A stretch of DNA of 54,971 nt from the NCBI GenBank assembly GCA_004298115.1, contig SCRJ01000158.1, forward strand, positions 1 through 54,971, read 5' to 3'. The first letter of the stretch is position 1. Each line of letters opens with the position of its first letter. The translations under genes and the position numbers were made by a program. Positions 8,698 through 43,740 of the stretch are shown in pieces. Source of the stretch: Acidobacteriota bacterium (GTDB lineage Bacteria > Acidobacteriota > Thermoanaerobaculia > Thermoanaerobaculales > Thermoanaerobaculaceae). Under the pieces are notes generated by a model. That model saw nothing but the letters and a program-made list of their open reading frames with translations, was not told where the DNA came from and ran no database searches.

Positions 8698-9195
8698 GTG
8701 GCGTGTCAAGACTCTTTCACACCTGCCGAAAACCCCGGCACCCGTCCGTGGCCGGAGCGACGTCTCGCCCGGCCCGGCGATCTGGCCGCGCTCGTCGCGC
8801 TCGACCGGATCTGCTTCGGGCGCCGGGCGTGGCCGGCGCGGGCGTGGCGGGAGGCGGTGACGGGGCCGGAGTGGACCACCGTGGTGGTCGAGCGCGGCGG
8901 GGCGATCGCCGCCGCCAGCGTGCTGCTCCTCGCCCGGCCGCGCGCCAGCCTCGCATCGCTCGCGGTCGCCCCCCTGTGGCGCCGGCAGGGCCTCGGGCGT
9001 GCCCTGCTGCGCGACGCGGTGGCGCGCGCACGCGCAGCCTCATTCCGCTGGCTCTCGCTCGAGGTGGACCGCGCCAACCGCGGCGCCGCTGCGCTGTACC
9101 GGCGGGAGGGTTTTGCGCCGCTGCGGCGTTTCCGGGAGGACGGCTGCTGGCGGCAGGAGATGATCCGCCGGCTCGGAGGTGCGCGTGGGGTGTGA
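8698..9195 (+). CDS. GNAT-family N-acetyltransferase, RimI-like
   Basis: About 165 residues from GTG 8698. The frame is open further upstream, to about 8620, but that stretch does not look like protein. A GNAT core is clear: LASLAVAPLWRRQGLGRALL contains the acetyl-CoA pyrophosphate loop (R/Q-x-x-G-x-G/A), and LEVDRANRGAAALYRREGF matches the C-terminal substrate half of RimI-type enzymes. These acetylate protein N-termini or small amines using acetyl-CoA. The stop overlaps the start of ubiX by 11 bases, the first of a chain of overlapping junctions in this operon. The precise substrate is unknown. Confidence 0.82.
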   Translation: MACQDSFTPAENPGTRPWPERRLARPGDLAALVALDRICFGRRAWPARAWREAVTGPEWTTVVVERGGAIAAASVLLLARPRASLASLAVAPLWRRQGLGRALLRDAVARARAASFRWLSLEVDRANRGAAALYRREGFAPLRRFREDGCWRQEMIRRLGGARGV

Positions 9196-9796
9196 GCTCG
9201 GACTCGTGGTCACCGGCGCGAGCGGTTCCCGCCTCGCGGCGGCGTTCGCGGAACTGGCCGCCGAGCATCCCGACGTCGGCGCGCTCCACGTCGTCCTCTC
9301 CGACGGGGCCCGGCTCGTCATCGCCCAGGAGCTCGGCAAGGACCGCGCGACGCCGCACGGTTTCGCCGCCGGCCTGGCGCTGAGCCCGGCCGGCCGGGAA
9401 AAGGTGAGGACCTGGGCGGAGGCCGACCTGACGGCGCCGGTGGCGTCGGGGTCGCACCTGCTGCGCGGCGTCGTGGTGCTGCCGTGCTCGGCGGCCACCG
9501 CCTGCTCGCTCGCCGCCGGGGTCTCGCGCGGTCTCGGCCAGCGCCTCGGCGACATCGCCCTCAAGCAGCGCTGGCCGCTCCTCCTCGGCTTTCGCGAGAG
9601 CCCGCTCTCGGCGATCCACCTCGAGGCGCTGCTCACCCTGACCCGCGCGGGCGCGATCGTGGTCCCGCCGATCCCCGCGTTCTACCTCGGCGGCGACGAG
9701 ATGGGCCGCTTCGTCGATCACTACTGCCTGCGTCTCTTCGACCTCCTCGGCCTCCCCGTGACCCGGCCGGAGCTGCGCTGGCGGGGCGTTCCGTGA
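9185..9796 (+). CDS. ubiX: Flavin prenyltransferase UbiX (or MqnM-like role)
   Basis: About 203 residues. The N-terminus has a Rossmann-like VVTGASGS motif. The family signatures VVVLPCSAATACSLAAG, ALKQRWPLLLGFRESPLS and GAIVVPPIPAFY are all present. UbiX attaches a dimethylallyl group to FMN to make prenylated FMN, the cofactor of UbiD decarboxylases used in ubiquinone or futalosine-route menaquinone synthesis. GTG 9185 is favoured over GTG 9179, because GGAGG at 9175-9179 then sits at a normal distance. The stop shares bases with the GTG of the next gene (GTGA), so the two are likely coupled. No ubiD is in this window. Confidence 0.93.
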   Translation: MGCELGLVVTGASGSRLAAAFAELAAEHPDVGALHVVLSDGARLVIAQELGKDRATPHGFAAGLALSPAGREKVRTWAEADLTAPVASGSHLLRGVVVLPCSAATACSLAAGVSRGLGQRLGDIALKQRWPLLLGFRESPLSAIHLEALLTLTRAGAIVVPPIPAFYLGGDEMGRFVDHYCLRLFDLLGLPVTRPELRWRGVP

Positions 9797-15199: not shown

Positions 15200-15552
15200 G
15201 GGGGCGTACCGGGTTCGACGGGGGACATGTTGGGTCGCCGGCAGCGTGCCGTGGTCCGCCGCCACGTAACAAGGGCGGAAACTCATAGCTGCCAACACTG
15301 AGCTAGCACTGGCTGCTTAAACGCAGTCACGTCGTGATCGCCGGCTCCCGCCTGCGAACCTGATCACGGCGACGCAAAAGCAGGCTGGAACGCCGCTTCG
15401 CCCGGCAGCGGCGGTCGAGATCTTTCGGGCTGGTCGCGACGGACGGGAGCCTACACCCAGCCACCGCGACGAGAAACAACAGTAGGCTGCGCACGGAGAC
15501 ACCTGCGGCCCAAGTCTTCCGGACGGGGGTTCGATTCCCCCCGCCTCCACCA
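15200..15552 (+). ncRNA. ssrA: tmRNA
   Basis: A one-piece tmRNA of 353 bases. The 5' end GGGGGCG (15200-15206) pairs with CGCCTCC (15542-15548), followed by A and an encoded CCA (15550-15552). The T-arm GGGTTCGATTCCCC is present. The tag frame starts at GCC 15291 and ends at TAA 15318-15320, giving the tag ANTELALAA, which ends in the Ala-Ala degron read by ClpXP. It rescues stalled ribosomes together with SmpB. The 3' end of ssrA is a classic integration site, and accessory genes follow it here, but I found no second copy of the 3' end. Confidence 0.96.
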
Positions 15553-34273: not shown

Positions 34274-35668
34274 TCACTTCCAGTGGCTCTTGATCCATTC
34301 TTCCGTCTCCGGCAGGCCGCCCTGCATGATGAGGTAGCCGTTGTGCGGCTCCCGGTCGGTGATCTCGTGCGACACCGGGGTGCGCATCAGGCGCGTGACC
34401 TCGGCGCGGTCGCGCGTGTGCCCGAGCACCCAGGACAGCTTCATGAGCGCCGTCTCCGGCAGCATGTTCTCGAGCGGCACGATGCCGAGGTCGAGGAGGT
34501 CGCGGCCGGTGTCGTAGACGTACATCTGCGCGTACCCCCACAGCGTCTGCACCGCCATCACCACGTGCACGCCCGCCGCGATCGCGCGCTCGAGCGGGGG
34601 GTAGAGCGGCTTGTTGACGTGGCCGAGGCCGGTGCCCGCGATGACGATGCCGTGGTACCCCTTCTCGACCAGGGCGTCGACGAGGTCGGGGTGCATCCCG
34701 GGGTAGTAGTACAGGATCGTGGTGCGGTCATCGTAGACGGGGTCGATCCTGACCTTGCGGCCCGCGTCGCGGCGGTTGTACTCCTTGTTCAGGTACGTGA
34801 AGCGGTCCCGGCTCACCGTGCCGAGCGGGACGTCGCCGATGGTGCGGAACGTGCTCCGGTACGAGGAGTGCATCTTGCGGCAGCGCGTGCCGCGGTGCAG
34901 CAGGCCGTAGCGGTCGGACGTCGGGCCGAACATGCAGATCATCACCTCGGCGATGTCGCCCCAGGCCGCCGCGCGCACGGAGTGGATGAGGTTGAGGGCG
35001 GCGTCCGAGGACGGCCGGTCGGACGAGCGCTGGCTCCCGACGAGGACGATCGGCACGGGGGAGTCCTGCACCATGAACGAGAGGATGGCGGCGGTGTGGC
35101 CCATCGTGTCGGTGCCGTGCCCGATCACGATGCCGTCCGCGCCCGCATCGATCTCCTCGCCGATCGCGACGGCGAGGGCGATGTACTGCTCCTTGGCCAT
35201 GTTCTCGGAGAACACCCCGAACAGCTTCTTCGTCGTCAGGTTGCAGATGTCGGCAAGCTCCGGGACGGCGCCGTACAGCTCGCCCGGCGTGAACGCCGGG
35301 ATCACCGCGCCGGTGCGGTAGTCGAGCCGCGACGCGATCGTCCCCCCGGTCCCCAGCAACGTCACCTTGGGGAGCTGCGGGCGGGCCGGGAACGCCTTCT
35401 CCGGGATCTTGTAGAACGCCTCCTTGTACCCCAGCTCGGTGATCTCGGCGACGCGCTCGACGTGGATGCCGATGTTGTAGCCGTTCTTCATCTTGATCAC
35501 GATGTGCAGGTCGTCGAACGTCTCGCTGCGCGGCAGGATCACGCCCTCGAAGACGCTCCCGGCGTCGTTGACGAGGCGCACCTCGCTCCACACCCGCACG
35601 CCGAAACCGGCGAGCGTGGCCCGCGCCCGGCCCTTGTACCCCTTGAGTTCGTCGCGCGCGGCGGTCAC
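34274..35668 (-). CDS. gatD: Glu-tRNA(Gln) amidotransferase subunit D (archaeal type)
   Basis: A protein of 464 residues. An N-terminal small domain (FEGVILPRSE...DDLHIVIKMKNGYNIGIHVE, about 36-72) is specific to GatD. The asparaginase domain follows, with TLLGTGGTIASRLDYRTGAV (Thr110), GHGTDTMGHTA (Thr186-Asp187-Thr188) and RKMHSS (Lys265). GatD supplies ammonia from glutamine or asparagine for GatE. GatDE is the archaeal enzyme; bacteria usually use GatCAB. GTG 35668 overlaps the gatE stop (GTGA). The N-terminal domain argues against plain asparaginase. Confidence 0.93.
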   Translation of the reverse strand: MTAARDELKGYKGRARATLAGFGVRVWSEVRLVNDAGSVFEGVILPRSETFDDLHIVIKMKNGYNIGIHVERVAEITELGYKEAFYKIPEKAFPARPQLPKVTLLGTGGTIASRLDYRTGAVIPAFTPGELYGAVPELADICNLTTKKLFGVFSENMAKEQYIALAVAIGEEIDAGADGIVIGHGTDTMGHTAAILSFMVQDSPVPIVLVGSQRSSDRPSSDAALNLIHSVRAAAWGDIAEVMICMFGPTSDRYGLLHRGTRCRKMHSSYRSTFRTIGDVPLGTVSRDRFTYLNKEYNRRDAGRKVRIDPVYDDRTTILYYYPGMHPDLVDALVEKGYHGIVIAGTGLGHVNKPLYPPLERAIAAGVHVVMAVQTLWGYAQMYVYDTGRDLLDLGIVPLENMLPETALMKLSWVLGHTRDRAEVTRLMRTPVSHEITDREPHNGYLIMQGGLPETEEWIKSHWK

Positions 35669-37629
35669 GGCCGGCCTCCGATCTCGGCGCGCACGGCGGC
35701 GGCGACCTCGGCGCCTGGCACCCGGCCGCGCAGCGACGGCATCGCGAGACCCATCGCCAACCGCAGGGCGCGCTCGCCATCGCCGGTGGCGAGCACGCCG
35801 GCGGCCTCCGCTGCGGCTGCGGCGGCCGTCTCCCGCCATCCCTGCGGCGCCGCGCCGAGCTGGCTGGACGCCAGCATCTCGGCGAGCGACCGCTCGGGCG
35901 CGCCGGCGAGCGCGCGCACGATCGGCTCCCATGCCTCCCACAGGACCGGCGTCGCGGCGAACGCCTGCAGCAGCTCGACCCAGAGCGAGGGGGCGATGCC
36001 GTCCACGTCCACGCCGGCGCGGCGCAGCCCCACCAGGCGCTCGCCGAACAGCAGGCACGCGCGCCGCAGGTCGGCGCCCGCTTCGGCCACGACCAGGTCC
36101 ACCAGGCGCGCGCCGCCCCGCCGGATCAGGTAGTGGATCGTCGGGGTGGGGACGCCGGCCGCCGCGTAGCGCGCCTCGCGCTCCCACGGGCGCGGTGCGA
36201 GCCCCGCCCTCAGGGCGGCGACCCGCTCCCTCCTCACCCGGGTCGGCGGCGAGTCGGTGTCGGGGTACATGCGGTCGGGACCGGGGAGGATGCGCTCGAA
36301 GTCGGTCGAGCCGTCGGCGAACGGCTGCCGGGTCTCGTTCGGGATCCCGTCCACCGCGTCGCGGTAGCGCAGCCGGATCTCGTCGGCCGCCGTGACGGTG
36401 TCGTCCTCAGGCCCCCACACGACCACGACCGCGTCGTCCGCCTCGCAGTGCAGGCGGGCGCGGACCCGCCGCAGCTCCTGCAGCGAGCCGCGGTAGTCGG
36501 GCCACTTCTCAGCGTGGAGCAGGATCGGGCGCTGGTCGAGGTCGGCGATCACCCGCACCCGGCCCGCGAGCTCGTGGGCGAACGTGAGGTCGGGCTGCGC
36601 CGGCCACGACAGGGTGCCGGCCAGGCGCGGCAGACGCACGGCGCGCACCACGAACGGCCCGCCGCCGAGCTCGAACCCGGGGCGCCTCTCCTCCTGCGCC
36701 ACCCAACGCTCCCAACCCTCCCGCCGCAGGAACCCCAGCTCGGAGCTCGCGAACACCTCGGTCACGTCGGCGCTTTCGGCCGCGACCGCGTCGGGGCCCG
36801 TGAAGCCGCGCCGGTGCAACTCGTCGCGCAGCGCCAGGAGGTTCACCTGCCGCACCGCCTCGCCGTGCACGAGGAGGCGCGCCCACCTCGCCTGCGGCAC
36901 CCCTTTGATCTCGACGCGGCGCCCCCCACGCACCGAGACGTTGACGTCCTGGCGGCTGGCGCCGATCCCGACGCGGACGTGGCCGGTGGAGCGGCACACC
37001 CGGCCGATCAGCAGGATCGCCTCCTCGACCTCCTCCGGCGTGCGCAGGTCGGGGCCGGTCACGGTCTCGATGAGCGGCATGCCGAGGCGGTCGGTGCGCC
37101 AGACGATCAGGTGGCCGCGGTCGGAGACCTCGCGGCAGGAGTCTTCCTCCACGCTCACCTGCGTGATCGTGATCTCGCGCCCGGCGAACGGCAGCCGCCC
37201 GTTGACCCCAACGATCGCGGTGCGCTGGAATCCCGTGGGGATCGAGCCGTCCAGGTACTGCTTGCGGGCGATGTGGACCTCGTCCACGATGTCGCAGCCG
37301 AGCATGAGGCACTGCTCGATCGCGACGTCCACCGCCTGCTGGTTCACGAGGAACGGGGGGGTGTCGTCCATCTCGTAGGTGCAGACGTTGTCCTCGTGCA
37401 GCAGATAGATGATGTTCTTCTTGGTCTTGAACTCCATCAAGGCGGTGCCGTCGTACTCGCCCAGCTCCGACAGCGTCGGCCGCATGTGCCGCAGCACCTC
37501 GCCGTCGTGCGTCGTCGTGTAGCACCGCGCCGGGCAACGACAGAACATCTTGCGTTCGGTGAGCAGCTGCTGGTGGACCTCGAGGCCGGCGATCAGGCCG
37601 ACCTGGGCGTAGTCGATGGATTGGGACAC
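35665..37629 (-). CDS. gatE: Glu-tRNA(Gln) amidotransferase subunit E (archaeal type)
   Basis: A protein of 654 residues, close to archaeal GatE length. The GatB-like catalytic half begins GLEVHQQLLTERKMFCRCP and continues TQVSVEEDSCREVSDRGHLIVWRTDRLGMPLIETVTGPDL, VGIGASRQDVNVSVRGGRRVEIKGV. An AspRS-like inserted domain follows at about 270-420 (SADVTEVFASSEL), then MYPDTDSPP, and a YqeY-type tail at about 530-654. It phosphorylates and amidates Glu on tRNA-Gln. GTG 37629 has GGAGGCGCGGC before it. The gene lies 88 bases after the receiver-LpxC gene on the same strand. Confidence 0.93.
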   Translation of the reverse strand: MSQSIDYAQVGLIAGLEVHQQLLTERKMFCRCPARCYTTTHDGEVLRHMRPTLSELGEYDGTALMEFKTKKNIIYLLHEDNVCTYEMDDTPPFLVNQQAVDVAIEQCLMLGCDIVDEVHIARKQYLDGSIPTGFQRTAIVGVNGRLPFAGREITITQVSVEEDSCREVSDRGHLIVWRTDRLGMPLIETVTGPDLRTPEEVEEAILLIGRVCRSTGHVRVGIGASRQDVNVSVRGGRRVEIKGVPQARWARLLVHGEAVRQVNLLALRDELHRRGFTGPDAVAAESADVTEVFASSELGFLRREGWERWVAQEERRPGFELGGGPFVVRAVRLPRLAGTLSWPAQPDLTFAHELAGRVRVIADLDQRPILLHAEKWPDYRGSLQELRRVRARLHCEADDAVVVVWGPEDDTVTAADEIRLRYRDAVDGIPNETRQPFADGSTDFERILPGPDRMYPDTDSPPTRVRRERVAALRAGLAPRPWEREARYAAAGVPTPTIHYLIRRGGARLVDLVVAEAGADLRRACLLFGERLVGLRRAGVDVDGIAPSLWVELLQAFAATPVLWEAWEPIVRALAGAPERSLAEMLASSQLGAAPQGWRETAAAAAAEAAGVLATGDGERALRLAMGLAMPSLRGRVPGAEVAAAVRAEIGGRP

Positions 37630-37717: not shown

Positions 37718-38995
37718 TCACGACGAGGCGCCGAGGATCGCGCGCTCGAGCGTGATGTTGTCGCGGTGGCCGGTGTATGCGGCGGTGACCTTGCCGCGCA
37801 CCGGGTAGCCGAGCAGGTAGAGGTCGCCGATGATGTCGAGGATCTTGTGGCGCACGAACTCGTCGGGGAAGCGCAGCTCCGTGTTGATGACGTTGTCCTC
37901 GCCGACCAGGATGAAGTTGTCGAGCCGCCCGCCGGAGCCGAGCCCGAGTTCGGCCATCATCGGCAGGTCGCGCATGAAGCCGAACGTGCGCGCCGGCGCG
38001 ATCTCGGCCTTGAACGCCGCGAAGTCCGTCATCGTGAAGTCGTAGAACTGTTCGCCGATCGGCGGCGGGTAGCGCAGCCGGTAGGAGACGGAGAACGTCT
38101 CGGCCGGCTCGATCACCAGGCTCTTGCCCGCCCCGCCCACTTCGTAGCGCCGATCGATGACGAGTTCCTTGCGGGGCACACCCTGATCCACGACCCCGAC
38201 CTCGTCCAACCGCTCGCAGAAGTCGAGCGCGGAGCCGTCGAGCACGGGGATCTCGCCGTGCACCTTGACGAGCAGGTTGGTGATGCCGCACGCGTGCAGC
38301 GCCGCGAGCAGGTGCTCGACGGTGCGGATGCTCTCCCCGTCGCGGGAGAGCGTGGTGGCGTACTCGGTCTCGGCCACCGAGCCGAGGTGCGCAGGGATCT
38401 GCGTCCCCTTCGGCAGCGTCACGAAGTGGATGCCGCTGTTCGGGGGCAGCGGCTGGATCGTCATCCCGGTGCGCCCGCCGGAGTGCAGGCCGATGCCGTA
38501 GATCACCGTGCCCGCGCCGACCGTGCGCTGCTCGGCGGCGCCCTCGCGCAGCAACGGCAGCCCCGGCGGCGGCAGGAACGTACGCTCGTGCTCCGGCTCG
38601 ACCGCGATCTCGAGCGGCGCGCCGCCCGCGCCCTTCGCCGCGAGCGCCCCCGTCAGCGCCTCGAGCACGCGATTGTAGGAGAGCGGCTTTTCCAGGTAGT
38701 CGTACGCTCCCATCTTGATCGCCTTCACCGCGGTGGGTGCCGTGCCGTGGCCGGAGATCATGATCACTGCGGCGTCGGGGTCGAGGCGGCGCAGCGCCTG
38801 CAGCGTCTCCAGGCCGTCGCGGTCGGGGAGCCAGATGTCGAGGAAGACCACGCCGGGCCGGCGGGCGCGGTACAGCTCCAGCGCCTGGGCGCCGCTGCCG
38901 GTGGTGACGGTGCGGAACCCCTCGTCCTCGAGGACGTGCGCCAGCTCGGTCCTGATCCCGGGCTCGTCGTCGACGATCAGCACGAGCGGCTTCAT
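37718..38995 (-). CDS. lpxC: Response-regulator receiver fused to LpxC deacetylase
   Basis: A protein of 425 residues. Residues 1-122 are a receiver domain of the NtrC type: D9-D10, phosphoacceptor D53 (FLDIWLPDRDG), Ser81 in MISGHG and Lys103 in EKPL are all present. Residues 155-425 are LpxC. GIGLHSG starts it; Glu227-His228 (TVEHLLAAL), VLDGSA (251-256), His383 and Asp387 (RHKILDIIGDL) and His410 (TGH) cover the Zn and catalytic positions. LpxC commits UDP-acyl-GlcNAc to lipid A. The frame is continuous. No sensor kinase is adjacent. Confidence 0.94.
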   Translation of the reverse strand: MKPLVLIVDDEPGIRTELAHVLEDEGFRTVTTGSGAQALELYRARRPGVVFLDIWLPDRDGLETLQALRRLDPDAAVIMISGHGTAPTAVKAIKMGAYDYLEKPLSYNRVLEALTGALAAKGAGGAPLEIAVEPEHERTFLPPPGLPLLREGAAEQRTVGAGTVIYGIGLHSGGRTGMTIQPLPPNSGIHFVTLPKGTQIPAHLGSVAETEYATTLSRDGESIRTVEHLLAALHACGITNLLVKVHGEIPVLDGSALDFCERLDEVGVVDQGVPRKELVIDRRYEVGGAGKSLVIEPAETFSVSYRLRYPPPIGEQFYDFTMTDFAAFKAEIAPARTFGFMRDLPMMAELGLGSGGRLDNFILVGEDNVINTELRFPDEFVRHKILDIIGDLYLLGYPVRGKVTAAYTGHRDNITLERAILGASS

Positions 38996-39208
38996 GGCCC
39001 GAGTGTGCGGCGTCGCCCGCTCCCGGTCAAGCCCGCCGGAGCCTGTCGCCGCCGGCCCCGCGGCCGCCCCGGCCCCGGTGCAGCCGGCGCCGCCCCGCGC
39101 CCCTCGTCACCGCCGTGGGAAACCGGCCGGAATGGCCGGGCGCCGGCGGCGGTTTCCCGTCCAAGGATTTCGTCGCACTCGAAGGCGGCTTCACTCGGGG
39201 GGTACACG

Positions 39209-40912
39209 ATGCGGATTTCGACCATGCTCATGGGAGGGTGCTGCGCCCTCGCGCTTCTCATTTCCGGCGGGTCGCTCCCGGTCCGTTCGGTGGGCGCCGC
39301 CGGGGTTCCCGGAGGCCCTCGAGCGTCCGTGACCGTCTCGTCCGCGCCGGCCGCCGTGCCGCTGGCGCTCCCTGGGCCGTCGTCGGTCACGGTCGTGCCG
39401 CACCTCGCCCAGCCCGGCGCGACGCTCCTCGCCTCGGGCACCGTGCCGTTCGCCGGGCAACCGTACTGCCTCTGCCTGGTTCCCAACGGCGCCTTCGCGG
39501 CTGCCGACACCCCGACGCCCACCCCGACGGACACCCCTTCGCCGACGCCGACCGCCACGGCGACCGACACCCCAACCCCGACGCCGACCGCCACCGCGAC
39601 CGACACCCCTTCACCGACGCCGACCGCCACCCAAACGCCGGTTCCGGGGGGACCCGACGTCGCGGTGACCGCGTCGTGCACGCTCGGGGCGGTCGGGTCG
39701 TTCACGATCACGAACAACGGCGGCGCCATGCCGAGCGCCGGCAGCTGGACGCTGACCCTCGACGGCACCCCGATCGCGACCAACAGCTTCCAGCTGGGTG
39801 CCGGGGCGAGCACCTCGATCAACACGTCGGGGCTCTTCGGCGTCCTCGAGCTGACCGCCAGCGGCGGCGGCATCCCCTCCCCGGTCACCGGCTCGGCCAC
39901 CTGCCCCACCCCGACGCCCACCCCAACACCTGTTCCCCCGGACATTGCGATCAACGCGTCCTGCACGCTCGGGGCGGTCGGGTCGTTCATCATCACGAAC
40001 AACGGCGGCGCCATGCCGAGCGCCGGCAGCTGGACGCTGACCCTCGACGGCACCCCGATCGCGACCAACACCTTCCAGCTCGCCGCCGGCGCCAGCACCT
40101 CGATCAACACGTCGGGGCTCTTCGGCGTCCTCGAGCTGACCGCCAGCGGCGGCGGCATCCCCTCCCCAGTCACCGGCTCGGCCACCTGCCCCACCCCGAC
40201 GCCCACCCCAACACCTGTTCCCCCGGACATTGCGATCAACGCGTCCTGCACGCTCGACGGGACCGGATCGTTCGTCATCACGAATAACGGCGGCGCCATG
40301 CCGAGCGCCGGCAGCTGGACGATGACCCTCGACGGCACCCCGATCGCGACCAACACCTTCCAGCTCGCCGCCGGCGCCAGCACCTCGATCAACACGTCGG
40401 GGATCTTCGGCGTCCTCGAGCTGACCGCAAGCGGCGGCGGCATCCCCTCCCCGGTCACCGGCTCGGCCACCTGCCCCACCCCGACGCCCACTCCGACCGC
40501 GACGAACACGCCCGCGGCCGCGCCGGCCGTTGCGCCGGCCGGCGCCCCGCTCAGGGCCACGGCCGTGCCCGCGCCTCCGCGACGGGAGATCCGGCAGGCG
40601 CCGGCCCGGATGGGCGCCCGCACCCTCGCCACGGGAATCGCGTGTGTCGCGTCCGTCGGGATCACCCCGGCCGACACCACGTTCTCGGGGGTCGCCCTCG
40701 TCGCACCCGCGGCGGGCTCGTACGACCTCCTCCTGCTCGACGGCCCGTGCGGCAGCTCGGACGCGGCGATCCTCGCGATCGACGCCCCCGGCGACGCCGC
40801 GGGTCTCGAGGTTTCCCCGCCGATCCCCGCCAGCGGGCGGGTCGGGCTCTTCCTCTTCGTCCTGGCGCTGGCCGCTACGGGCTGGTTCCTGGTCCGGGCG
40901 TCAAGGGGGTAG
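39209..40912 (+). CDS. Secreted TP-rich protein with three 95-residue repeats
   Basis: A protein of 567 residues from ATG 39209 (GGGGGGT 9 bases upstream). A signal peptide is followed by a Thr-Pro tract (about 100-145), then three nearly identical 95-residue units beginning PDVAV or PDIAI and containing ASCTLxxxGSFxITNNGGAMPSAGSW. Each ends in a TP spacer. The pattern is CARDB/immunoglobulin-like. The C-terminus (SPPIPASGRVGLFLFVLALAATGWFLVRASRG, about 535-567) has a short IP motif, one membrane segment and basic end, like IPTL/PEP-CTERM sorting signals. It probably sits on the surface. No function is known. Confidence 0.87.
   Translation: MRISTMLMGGCCALALLISGGSLPVRSVGAAGVPGGPRASVTVSSAPAAVPLALPGPSSVTVVPHLAQPGATLLASGTVPFAGQPYCLCLVPNGAFAAADTPTPTPTDTPSPTPTATATDTPTPTPTATATDTPSPTPTATQTPVPGGPDVAVTASCTLGAVGSFTITNNGGAMPSAGSWTLTLDGTPIATNSFQLGAGASTSINTSGLFGVLELTASGGGIPSPVTGSATCPTPTPTPTPVPPDIAINASCTLGAVGSFIITNNGGAMPSAGSWTLTLDGTPIATNTFQLAAGASTSINTSGLFGVLELTASGGGIPSPVTGSATCPTPTPTPTPVPPDIAINASCTLDGTGSFVITNNGGAMPSAGSWTMTLDGTPIATNTFQLAAGASTSINTSGIFGVLELTASGGGIPSPVTGSATCPTPTPTPTATNTPAAAPAVAPAGAPLRATAVPAPPRREIRQAPARMGARTLATGIACVASVGITPADTTFSGVALVAPAAGSYDLLLLDGPCGSSDAAILAIDAPGDAAGLEVSPPIPASGRVGLFLFVLALAATGWFLVRASRG
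39653..40496 (+). repeat. Three tandem 285-bp units
   Basis: Units start at 39653, 39938 and 40223, each 285 bases (95 codons); the last unit is slightly shorter before it diverges. The second and third share long runs of identical bases, which suggests recent duplication or gene conversion. The repeat keeps the reading frame. Confidence 0.9.
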
Positions 40913-41736: not shown

Positions 41737-43740
41737 GTGCACGACGATCACAGCGCACCGGCCCGGCCGCCCTTGGCCGGTCCGACACGTGGCCACGCCG
41801 ATCGCGCCGACGGGACGAACGGCCGCCAGCCGCGCCCGACGACGCGCCGGGAGATTCGACCGTCCGCGACGCGGGACCCGGCGTTCGTCGCAGCCGGATG
41901 GGCCGTGATCGCCAACGGCCTAGTGGGGGTGCTCCTCGCCGAGGCCGGTCCGATGGCCGGCGGTGGCGTTGGGGTCGCGACCGCCGCCTCGTTGTGGGAC
42001 GTGCTCAACGGCGCCGGCCTCCTGCGAGCCCGCGGCCTGGCCGGAATCGCGCCGAACGTGTGGCGGATCCTGGCCATCATCCGCCTCGCTCTCCAGGCGC
42101 TGCTGCTCTACGGCGCGGGCGCAGGGACAGCCCACCACCTTCGAAACCTTCAGCTGCTGCAGGCCACCCCGGCGATGCTCGGGCTCGTCTGCTTGTTGGC
42201 TTTCCTTCCCCGGTCGCGAGCGCTCATCGGAGCGTGTGCGTTTGTCTGGGCCGCAACGCCGGCCGTGCTCGTGCTCCAGGTCGCCGGCTACCGGCCGATC
42301 CTCGTCATGAAGAGGGTGGCGCAGGTGCGCGACGCGGCCCTCGAGCGCCTCGAGTTTTCCGATCCCGAGAGTGGTCTGACGGTCAGCCTTCCTTCGGGGT
42401 GGTACCTCTTGCCGGCCGACAACCCGTTTTGGCCGGCGGGGCCGGGCACGGACGCGGTCATCGCCTGCCCGCGCGCCGAGCTGTTCGGGACGATTCGCAG
42501 GGAGTTCATGGCAGGGAGCAAGGTGCCATACGACGGCCAGCCGGTCAGCCGGTATCTCGACGGCGTCGTGGCCGACCGGACGCGGCAGTTTCCTGCCACC
42601 CGGGTGCTGACGCGAGAGCCACTGCCCGGCCTCGACGCCCCGGCCGAGCGGGTCGTCATGGCGACGACGGATGCGGGTGGCAGGAGCCTCATCGTCTTCG
42701 CCGCCGCTTTCGACGACGGCTACCGCTTCCATCTGATTTCGGCGTCGTGTCCCAAGGCGGAGCAGGACGAGGCGACCCGGGAGTTCGGGGCTCTCGAAGA
42801 TCGAGTGGACTTCACCAGGACAACCGAGGAGCGCGAGGGCGACGCCGTGACGCGGATGACGGCGGGCGGCTCGTCTCCTGCCGACGACGCGTTGCGGGCG
42901 TTCGCGCGGTACATCCTGAGGCACCGCCTCAGCGAGGAGGAGGCGCACGCGCTCGGCATGAGGTTGGGAGCGACGATGTACAGGCCCCTCTCCGCCGCGG
43001 AGGCGGTGGAACTCGCTCCGGCCTCGGGTCGAAGCCTGGTCGCGCTGCCGGAGCATGACCTCGGGCCCCTGAAGACCCAGGGCGCAGTGATGAGGGTCAC
43101 CGACCGCGAGACGGTCGCGAAGGCGGCGGTCGGGAGCATCGATCCGCGCGCCCGCGAAGGCGCGGCCTCGCTCATCGCCGACCAGGGCCTCCTCGCCAAG
43201 CTCGCGATCGAGGACCCGGATCCGCGCGTCCGCCTGGTCGCGGTCAGGCGGCTCACCGATCAGAGCGTGCTGCGCAGGTTGGCGATCGGGGAGACAAATT
43301 GGGGCCCCCGCCAGGCCGCCATCATGAAGCTTAAGGATCAGAGCGTTCTCGCACGACTGGCGACCCAGGATGCGGACTGGCGGGTCCGGTGCTACGCGAC
43401 CGGAGGGCTCACCGATCAGGAGCTGCTGGCAAAACTGGCGACCGGGGACAGGGAATGGAGTGTCCGGGCGGCCGCCGCGGCGAAGCTCACCGATCAGGCG
43501 GTCCTCGCCGGGATCTTGAACGACGAGAGGGAAGCGGTCGTACGGCGGGCCGCCGTTCGCAGGGTCACCGACCGCGCGCTGCTGGCCAAGCTGGCGACCG
43601 GGGACGCGGATGCGGACGTCCGGTACGGCGCCGTCGGCAGGCTCACCGATCCCGCGTTGCTCGCCAGGATCGCGGCCGCCGACAAGTCCGCGTGGATCCG
43701 CCAGGCCGCGCAGTACCGTCTCGACGAGCTTCCTCGCTAG
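41737..43740 (+). CDS. Membrane protein with eight 26-residue LRV/HEAT-like repeats
   Basis: A protein of 667 residues from GTG 41737 (GAGGGTG upstream; start uncertain). After a polar N-terminus come about four transmembrane segments (roughly 50-70, 72-92, 105-125 and 150-180). A globular domain follows (ESGLTVSLPSGWYLLPADNPFW; about 205-360). The C-terminal 210 residues consist of eight repeats of exactly 26 residues (43096-43719), for example LTDQELLAKLATGD plus a VR-AA helix. They resemble leucine-rich-variant or HEAT repeats that form binding superhelices. No enzyme motif is seen. The role is unknown. Confidence 0.8.
   Translation: MHDDHSAPARPPLAGPTRGHADRADGTNGRQPRPTTRREIRPSATRDPAFVAAGWAVIANGLVGVLLAEAGPMAGGGVGVATAASLWDVLNGAGLLRARGLAGIAPNVWRILAIIRLALQALLLYGAGAGTAHHLRNLQLLQATPAMLGLVCLLAFLPRSRALIGACAFVWAATPAVLVLQVAGYRPILVMKRVAQVRDAALERLEFSDPESGLTVSLPSGWYLLPADNPFWPAGPGTDAVIACPRAELFGTIRREFMAGSKVPYDGQPVSRYLDGVVADRTRQFPATRVLTREPLPGLDAPAERVVMATTDAGGRSLIVFAAAFDDGYRFHLISASCPKAEQDEATREFGALEDRVDFTRTTEEREGDAVTRMTAGGSSPADDALRAFARYILRHRLSEEEAHALGMRLGATMYRPLSAAEAVELAPASGRSLVALPEHDLGPLKTQGAVMRVTDRETVAKAAVGSIDPRAREGAASLIADQGLLAKLAIEDPDPRVRLVAVRRLTDQSVLRRLAIGETNWGPRQAAIMKLKDQSVLARLATQDADWRVRCYATGGLTDQELLAKLATGDREWSVRAAAAAKLTDQAVLAGILNDEREAVVRRAAVRRVTDRALLAKLATGDADADVRYGAVGRLTDPALLARIAAADKSAWIRQAAQYRLDELPR
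43096..43719 (+). repeat. Eight in-frame 78-bp repeats
   Basis: Each unit encodes 26 residues beginning [LVI][TKA]D[QRP]. The eight units run 43096-43719 without a gap, and six more codons (LDELPR) follow. DNA similarity between units is moderate, so they are older than the 285-bp repeats at 39653-40496. Confidence 0.85.

Follow-up and report, generated by a model that had tools for sequence, protein, structure and literature searches.

A receiver–LpxC frame in the window

The window, that is, the whole stretch of 54,971 nt analysed here (contig SCRJ01000158.1 of an Acidobacteriota bacterium of the family Thermoanaerobaculaceae), carries a gene in which a response-regulator receiver (REC) is followed, in the same frame, by the deacetylase LpxC (Table 1). 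LpxC commits the cell to lipid A, is the point at which outer-membrane synthesis is controlled, and serves as a target for antibiotics; to our knowledge, its regulation outside enterobacteria is largely open. The original prediction was that one continuous 425-residue frame joins a complete receiver to a complete LpxC, with functional-looking key residues on both sides, and the results bear this out on each point. The frame has no internal stop. Its N-terminal part matches Pfam Response_reg over residues 5-114 (106.9 bits, far over the cut-off), and its C-terminal part matches Pfam LpxC with 278.1 bits, against a cut-off of 27, and the NCBIfam lpxC equivalog TIGR00325 with 240 bits, over a cut-off of 187. 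Among NCBIfam receiver models, NtrX fits the fused REC best (110 bits), with FixJ, AtoC and NtrC scoring lower. The receiver residues D9, D10, D53, S81 and K103 are all present, as are the LpxC residues E227, H228, H383, K384, D387, D391 and H410, of which E227, H228, H383, D387, D391 and H410 correspond to E. coli E78, H79, H238, D242, D246 and H265.

Table 1. Features of the window, with the evidence for each
Feature	Position (nt)	Strand	Basis or remark
rec-lpxC fusion gene	37718..38995	minus	425 aa; ATG at 38995, stop at 37718; continuous frame, both domains, same-architecture orthologues
Receiver (REC), residues 1-120	38636..38995	minus	Pfam PF00072; NtrX NCBIfam match; conserved sites
Phospho-acceptor D53 codon	38837-38839	minus	Inside REC domain
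Flexible linker, residues 121-155	38531..38635	minus	AlphaFold2 confidence; dN/dS mostly above that of the domains
LpxC deacetylase domain, residues 156-421	37733..38530	minus	Pfam PF03331; superposition on Aquifex LpxC
GatE, archaeal-type Glu-tRNA(Gln) amidotransferase subunit	35665..37629	minus	NCBIfam above cut-off; downstream neighbour, outside the system
GatD, archaeal-type	34274..35584	minus	NCBIfam GatD above cut-off; Pfam GatD_N and Asparaginase; start approximate (first residue matched by GatD profiles); downstream neighbour, outside the system
Secreted protein, divergent gene	39190-40912	plus	Tandem domains
Repeat protein	41737-43740	plus	HEAT/LRV-like repeats
tmRNA gene	15200-15552	plus	Tag ANTELALAA; only one in this genome

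In the AlphaFold2 model of the fusion (pLDDT 85, pTM 0.79) REC and LpxC are both folded and are joined by a loose linker, with low confidence at residues 124-136; the modelled LpxC part superposes on Aquifex LpxC with a TM score of 0.96 (by target length). As part of the overall reading set out below, the fused LpxC is predicted to be a catalytically competent deacetylase. A Pfam scan of the window protein detects neither a sigma-54 AAA domain nor a Fis-type DNA-binding domain, leaving REC as its sole NtrX part. A scan for a sigma-70 promoter and a terminator was empty, a plasmid search returned no full-length match to the fusion protein, and none of the 60 best PDB chains listed has both domains.

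The neighbouring genes have features of their own. The bacterium has archaeal-type GatD and GatE genes immediately behind the fusion, and only two close congeners (G552 and G557) share GatE on the 3' side. The divergent gene on the other side encodes a protein that is secreted and contains near-identical domains of ~95 aa in tandem ('ITNNGGAMPSAGSWTLTLDGTPIATN'), separated by TPTPTP linkers, and the C-terminal half of the repeat protein beyond it consists of repeats of ~24 residues (like 'DRALLAKLATGDADADVRYGAVGRLTD').

The original prediction had named an assembly artefact at the junction as a point on which it might fail. The assembly is fragmented and the second LpxC of this genome sits on another contig, which would be compatible with a frame that arose by misassembly, from a contaminating contig or by chance. 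However, the REC–LpxC junction forms one frame in 9/9 members of the genus sampled and in dozens of separately assembled genomes from other genera and phyla, and the fusion is therefore no assembly artefact. The contig carries the only tmRNA of the genome, whose closest relative is the tmRNA of a genome of the same family (G294); ~10 kb of the contig is syntenic with that genome; and the k-mer composition of the contig fits the other contigs of the same genome. The contig thus belongs to this genome, contamination and chimerism are ruled out, and we regard this alternative as already refuted.

Distribution and conservation of the fusion

Full-length fusions occur in 8/297 genomes of an even sample of the phylum Acidobacteriota, and a scan of named genomes places carriers in Thermoanaerobaculales, Holophagae, Aminicenantes and unclassified acidobacterial MAGs. 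The architecture is also present in the phylum of Desulfomonile, taken by inference to be Desulfobacterota, in which at least 54 of the 247 sampled genomes encode a fused LpxC; in the at least 53 further carriers in that sample a receiver is detected in all, with the N-terminus broken in two. The search across genomes thus bears out the architecture as one that recurs in many Acidobacteriota and in a second phylum. No conserved neighbourhood surrounds the fusion across the Acidobacteriota carriers. By sequence inspection, a gene for an AcpS-like holo-ACP synthase follows the fusion by a few nucleotides in one Aminicenantes MAG (L040, ~8896-9270) and is itself followed by STAS, anti-sigma and SpoIIE-like genes.

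Two Desulfomonile MAGs encode longer frames, of 707 and 764 aa, in which a degenerate sigma-54-type AAA module lies between receiver and LpxC. An AAA module with Walker A is kept in 13/69 fused proteins, the remainder being receiver–LpxC proteins like that of the window. GAFTGA is absent from all 13 AAA-bearing proteins among the 69 compared, so these proteins should not activate sigma-54. The frames at loci L037, L038, L169, L173 and L176-L179 have lengths of 707-820 aa and an NtrC-type AAA with Walker A, and some of them retain a Fis-like helix remnant before LpxC.

All seven catalytic residues are invariant in 69/69 fused LpxC domains, and the DD pair, D53 and K103 are invariant in 67/67 fused receivers with a whole N-terminus, with S or T at position 81. 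In the LpxC-domain tree a single branch (SH-aLRT 100) divides fused from canonical LpxCs; by this tree the fused LpxCs are one clade, of one origin. In the receiver tree, which is built on few columns, the fused receivers form one group (82) beside NtrX and NtrX-like receivers (86). Values of dN/dS within the genus of the window are 0.05-0.17 for REC and 0.10-0.22 for LpxC, with those of the linker mostly higher, and on these values both domains of the fusion are under purifying selection.

These results bear on whether the receiver carries a signal at all. A receiver that is structural or a relic, aiding the folding or localisation of LpxC with no phosphorylation signal, would be compatible with the loose linker of the AlphaFold2 model, and some receivers do work without phosphorylation. 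However, invariant phosphorylation residues in 67/67 whole receivers, purifying selection on the domain, and the co-occurrence of the fusion with an NtrX-less NtrY (see below) make this the least likely of the three functional alternatives that we consider.

The fusion is the sole LpxC in 13/16 carriers examined. The remaining three are G304, in which the gene is split over contig ends, G298, which has a partial LpxC in addition, and the window genome (G000), which has an intact canonical LpxC in addition. LpxB is found in 19/20 and LpxK in 18/20 genomes compared. With no other LpxC in most carriers and with LpxB and LpxK in place, fusion-only carriers probably use the fused enzyme to make lipid A. 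Fused LpxCs end 14-23 residues past the catalytic His, versus 32-47 residues in most canonical LpxCs examined. That a lost C-terminal degron accounts for the receiver (PMC12444477) is only suggested, since some canonical LpxCs are also short at the C-terminus.

The genus of the window differs from this pattern, and here the first reading needs correction: the fusion is additional to another LpxC in this genus and is mostly the sole one elsewhere. Within the genus, each of the nine sampled genomes encodes a canonical LpxC together with a second one in a frame of 431-508 aa; a receiver is confirmed on the long-frame LpxC in all nine, and the long-frame proteins of the eight congeners share 76-92% identity with that of the window over the full length. 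The fusion coexists in this genus with an intact canonical lpxC-DUF4390-ntrY-ntrX operon. In genus g171, represented by G562 (the genome of L034/G298) and G564, an intact fusion stands beside a degraded second LpxC, and elsewhere in the family and order a genome has the fusion only or the canonical gene only. The second LpxC of G564 (L382, G564:C436) lacks, by inspection, the catalytic His motif as well as the equivalents of D242 and D246, and that of G562 (L381, G562:C194) breaks off; with catalytic motifs lost, these decayed copies are possible pseudoenzymes.

Kinase genes and the fate of NtrX

The original prediction found no kinase near the fusion and left its partner unknown. The first part stands, in that no kinase gene is adjacent in the window, and the second gives way, in that relatives point to NtrY, by adjacency in some and by orphaning of ntrY in others. 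In 17/53 Desulfobacterota carriers the gene immediately preceding the fusion, in the same orientation, codes for an NtrY kinase, with a gap of -29 to +92 nt in the 12 cases measured, ATGA overlap among them; three upstream NtrYs that were scanned have NtrY_N, HAMP, PAS, HisKA and HATPase_c domains. In 18 further Desulfobacterota the NtrY gene is away from the fusion and is followed by no regulator.

The canonical order in Thermoanaerobaculia is lpxC, a DUF4390-type gene, ntrY, ntrX (G000 contig C150, G294, G286, G078 and G029; DUF4390 identity checked by Pfam in two genomes). In five fusion-only relatives (G238, G015, G246, G299 and G297) ntrY is present in the matching locus, lpxC and ntrX are both absent there, and several of the five retain the DUF4390-type gene upstream of ntrY. 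No ntrX adjoins ntrY in six Aminicenantia, in Desulfomonile or in G304; in one of the Aminicenantia (G129) other genes separate ntrY from an NtrC-type regulator 2 kb away, and another (G280), with only 0.35 kb present downstream of ntrY, was left out of the count. Overall, ntrX follows ntrY in 0/48 fusion-only genomes versus 24/26 genomes without the fusion; the comparison set of Desulfobacterota without the fusion was drawn from 25 genomes taken in handle order. The Fisher values for this contrast, 2e-17 overall and 2e-13 for Desulfobacterota alone, are descriptive and overstate the evidence because species are not independent. The best score to a profile for true NtrX is 585-872 bits in canonical-lpxC genomes and G298, and 416-505 bits in fusion-only genomes; given this drop, NtrX in fusion-only genomes appears to have been lost rather than moved.

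The loss of NtrX also bears on a reversal of roles, according to which LpxC senses substrate or flux and alters receiver phosphorylation and NtrY, or the receiver serves as a phosphate sink. Such a role would suit the window genus, which retains an intact canonical LpxC for catalysis. However, NtrX, the onward output that such a signal would have, is gone in fusion-only carriers, and most carriers need the fused protein for catalysis, having no other LpxC. We judge a reversed role to be quite improbable, if by a hair less so than a receiver without a signal.

In the window genome, ntrY (contig C150, G000 C150:17676-19757) is followed by a true ntrX, and the fusion does not directly follow ntrY. 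The encoded NtrY has HAMP, HisKA and HATPase_c domains and is the best match to the NtrY profile in the genome; Pfam NtrY_N, detected in relatives, is undetected in this diverged protein, which is of a more distant type (408 bits, versus 569-590 bits in four fusion-only genomes). Because this NtrY keeps NtrX and is of the distant type, the kinase that serves the fusion in the window species may be shared or different.

The retention of NtrX by NtrY in the window species would also fit the alternative that the receiver takes its phosphate, and with it a different signal, from one or more kinases that are not NtrY (PilS-type, hybrid). In Aminicenantia genomes the fusion has a PilS/PilR-like pair at 1.5-4.5 kb on its upstream side; in one Desulfomonile it is preceded by a hybrid kinase and a CheA-like gene. 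These neighbours are, however, lineage-specific, and the PilS neighbour is already paired with its own PilR-type regulator, whereas NtrY adjacency or orphaning repeats across two phyla. Another kinase is thus unlikely, although it is the most credible of the alternatives, and NtrY is most likely the partner kinase of the fusion.

Proposed control of LpxC through the receiver

The reading that we favour, at a probability of about three in four, is that LpxC is switched, in activity, stability or placement, by phosphorylation of an NtrX-derived receiver, with NtrY as kinase and phosphatase. Phosphorylation control, as first proposed, is strongly favoured by comparison of sequences (invariant phospho-acceptor residues in two phyla, purifying selection on both domains, and a matching kinase that is adjacent or orphaned), and the original prediction as a whole is partly supported. 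According to this reading, the membrane sensor NtrY, probably with a DUF4390 protein as periplasmic partner, would phosphorylate D53 of the fused receiver, and dimerisation or packing of the receiver would alter the activity, stability or placement of LpxC. The sign of the effect is close to a coin toss: we lean slightly, as a guess, towards phosphorylation restraining LpxC, because alphaproteobacterial NtrYX represses lpxC.

The history of the fusion would have begun with NtrY–NtrX already tied to lpxC, as in the ancestral lpxC-DUF4390-ntrY-ntrX operon of Acidobacteriota. LpxC would then have joined an NtrX-type regulator, replacing its DNA-binding end or behind it; the AAA and DNA-binding parts would have degenerated and then been lost; and the earlier, separate lpxC and ntrX genes would have disappeared. 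The receiver–AAA–LpxC state survives in 13 genomes.

If this reading is true, a hard-wired link from kinase to LpxC would tune lipid A synthesis directly, a transcription-factor receiver would have been re-used on its former target enzyme, and what NtrY senses would become testable by a simple enzyme read-out. A membrane sensor kinase would then probably control outer-membrane synthesis directly, not through gene expression. We also consider it likely, with a little less assurance than the reading itself, that the fusion represents a new class of response regulator, in which the receiver of NtrX sits on its former transcriptional target and gives one-step control of lipid A, in two phyla and with receiver–AAA–LpxC intermediates. 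No description of a receiver–LpxC fusion was found in the open-access literature, which is weak evidence since the search covered open-access papers only; the words 'receiver' and 'fusion' are both absent from a 2025 review of lipid A regulation.

Response regulators with enzymatic output are known from the CheB, GGDEF, EAL and HD-GYP families, and those that we know of produce signals, clear them or modify receptors. The window protein resembles them in having a receiver fused to an enzyme and differs from them in that its output is a core biosynthetic enzyme. It resembles the LpxCs of known structure (PF03331; Aquifex, Pseudomonas and E. coli) in fold, in the completeness of the domain and in every catalytic and zinc residue, and differs from canonical LpxC in its N-terminal receiver, its separate clade and a C-terminal end shorter than in most canonical LpxCs examined. 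Its receiver is most like that of NtrX of the NtrYX system, and the fusion occupies the place of ntrX after ntrY in 17 genomes; unlike NtrX, the window protein is without the sigma-54 AAA and Fis-type DNA-binding domains, and its output is an enzyme.

The same kinase family and the same enzyme are connected in Rhodobacter and Caulobacter, there at the level of the lpxC transcript: Rhodobacter without NtrYX has ~ninefold more lpxC transcript and ~twofold more LPS, and NtrYX of Caulobacter represses lpxC too (PMC7240162, PMC12444477). In Bordetella, a DUF4390 protein of the periplasm joins an NtrYX-family system as its third component (PMC13001219). Desulfovibrio uses a different regulator, DVU2934, whose sole target is lpxC and which exerts two-component control of the same enzyme via the transcript (PMC3333781). 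In contrast to these systems of transcriptional control, the receiver of the protein described here, as read from its sequence, is part of the enzyme itself.
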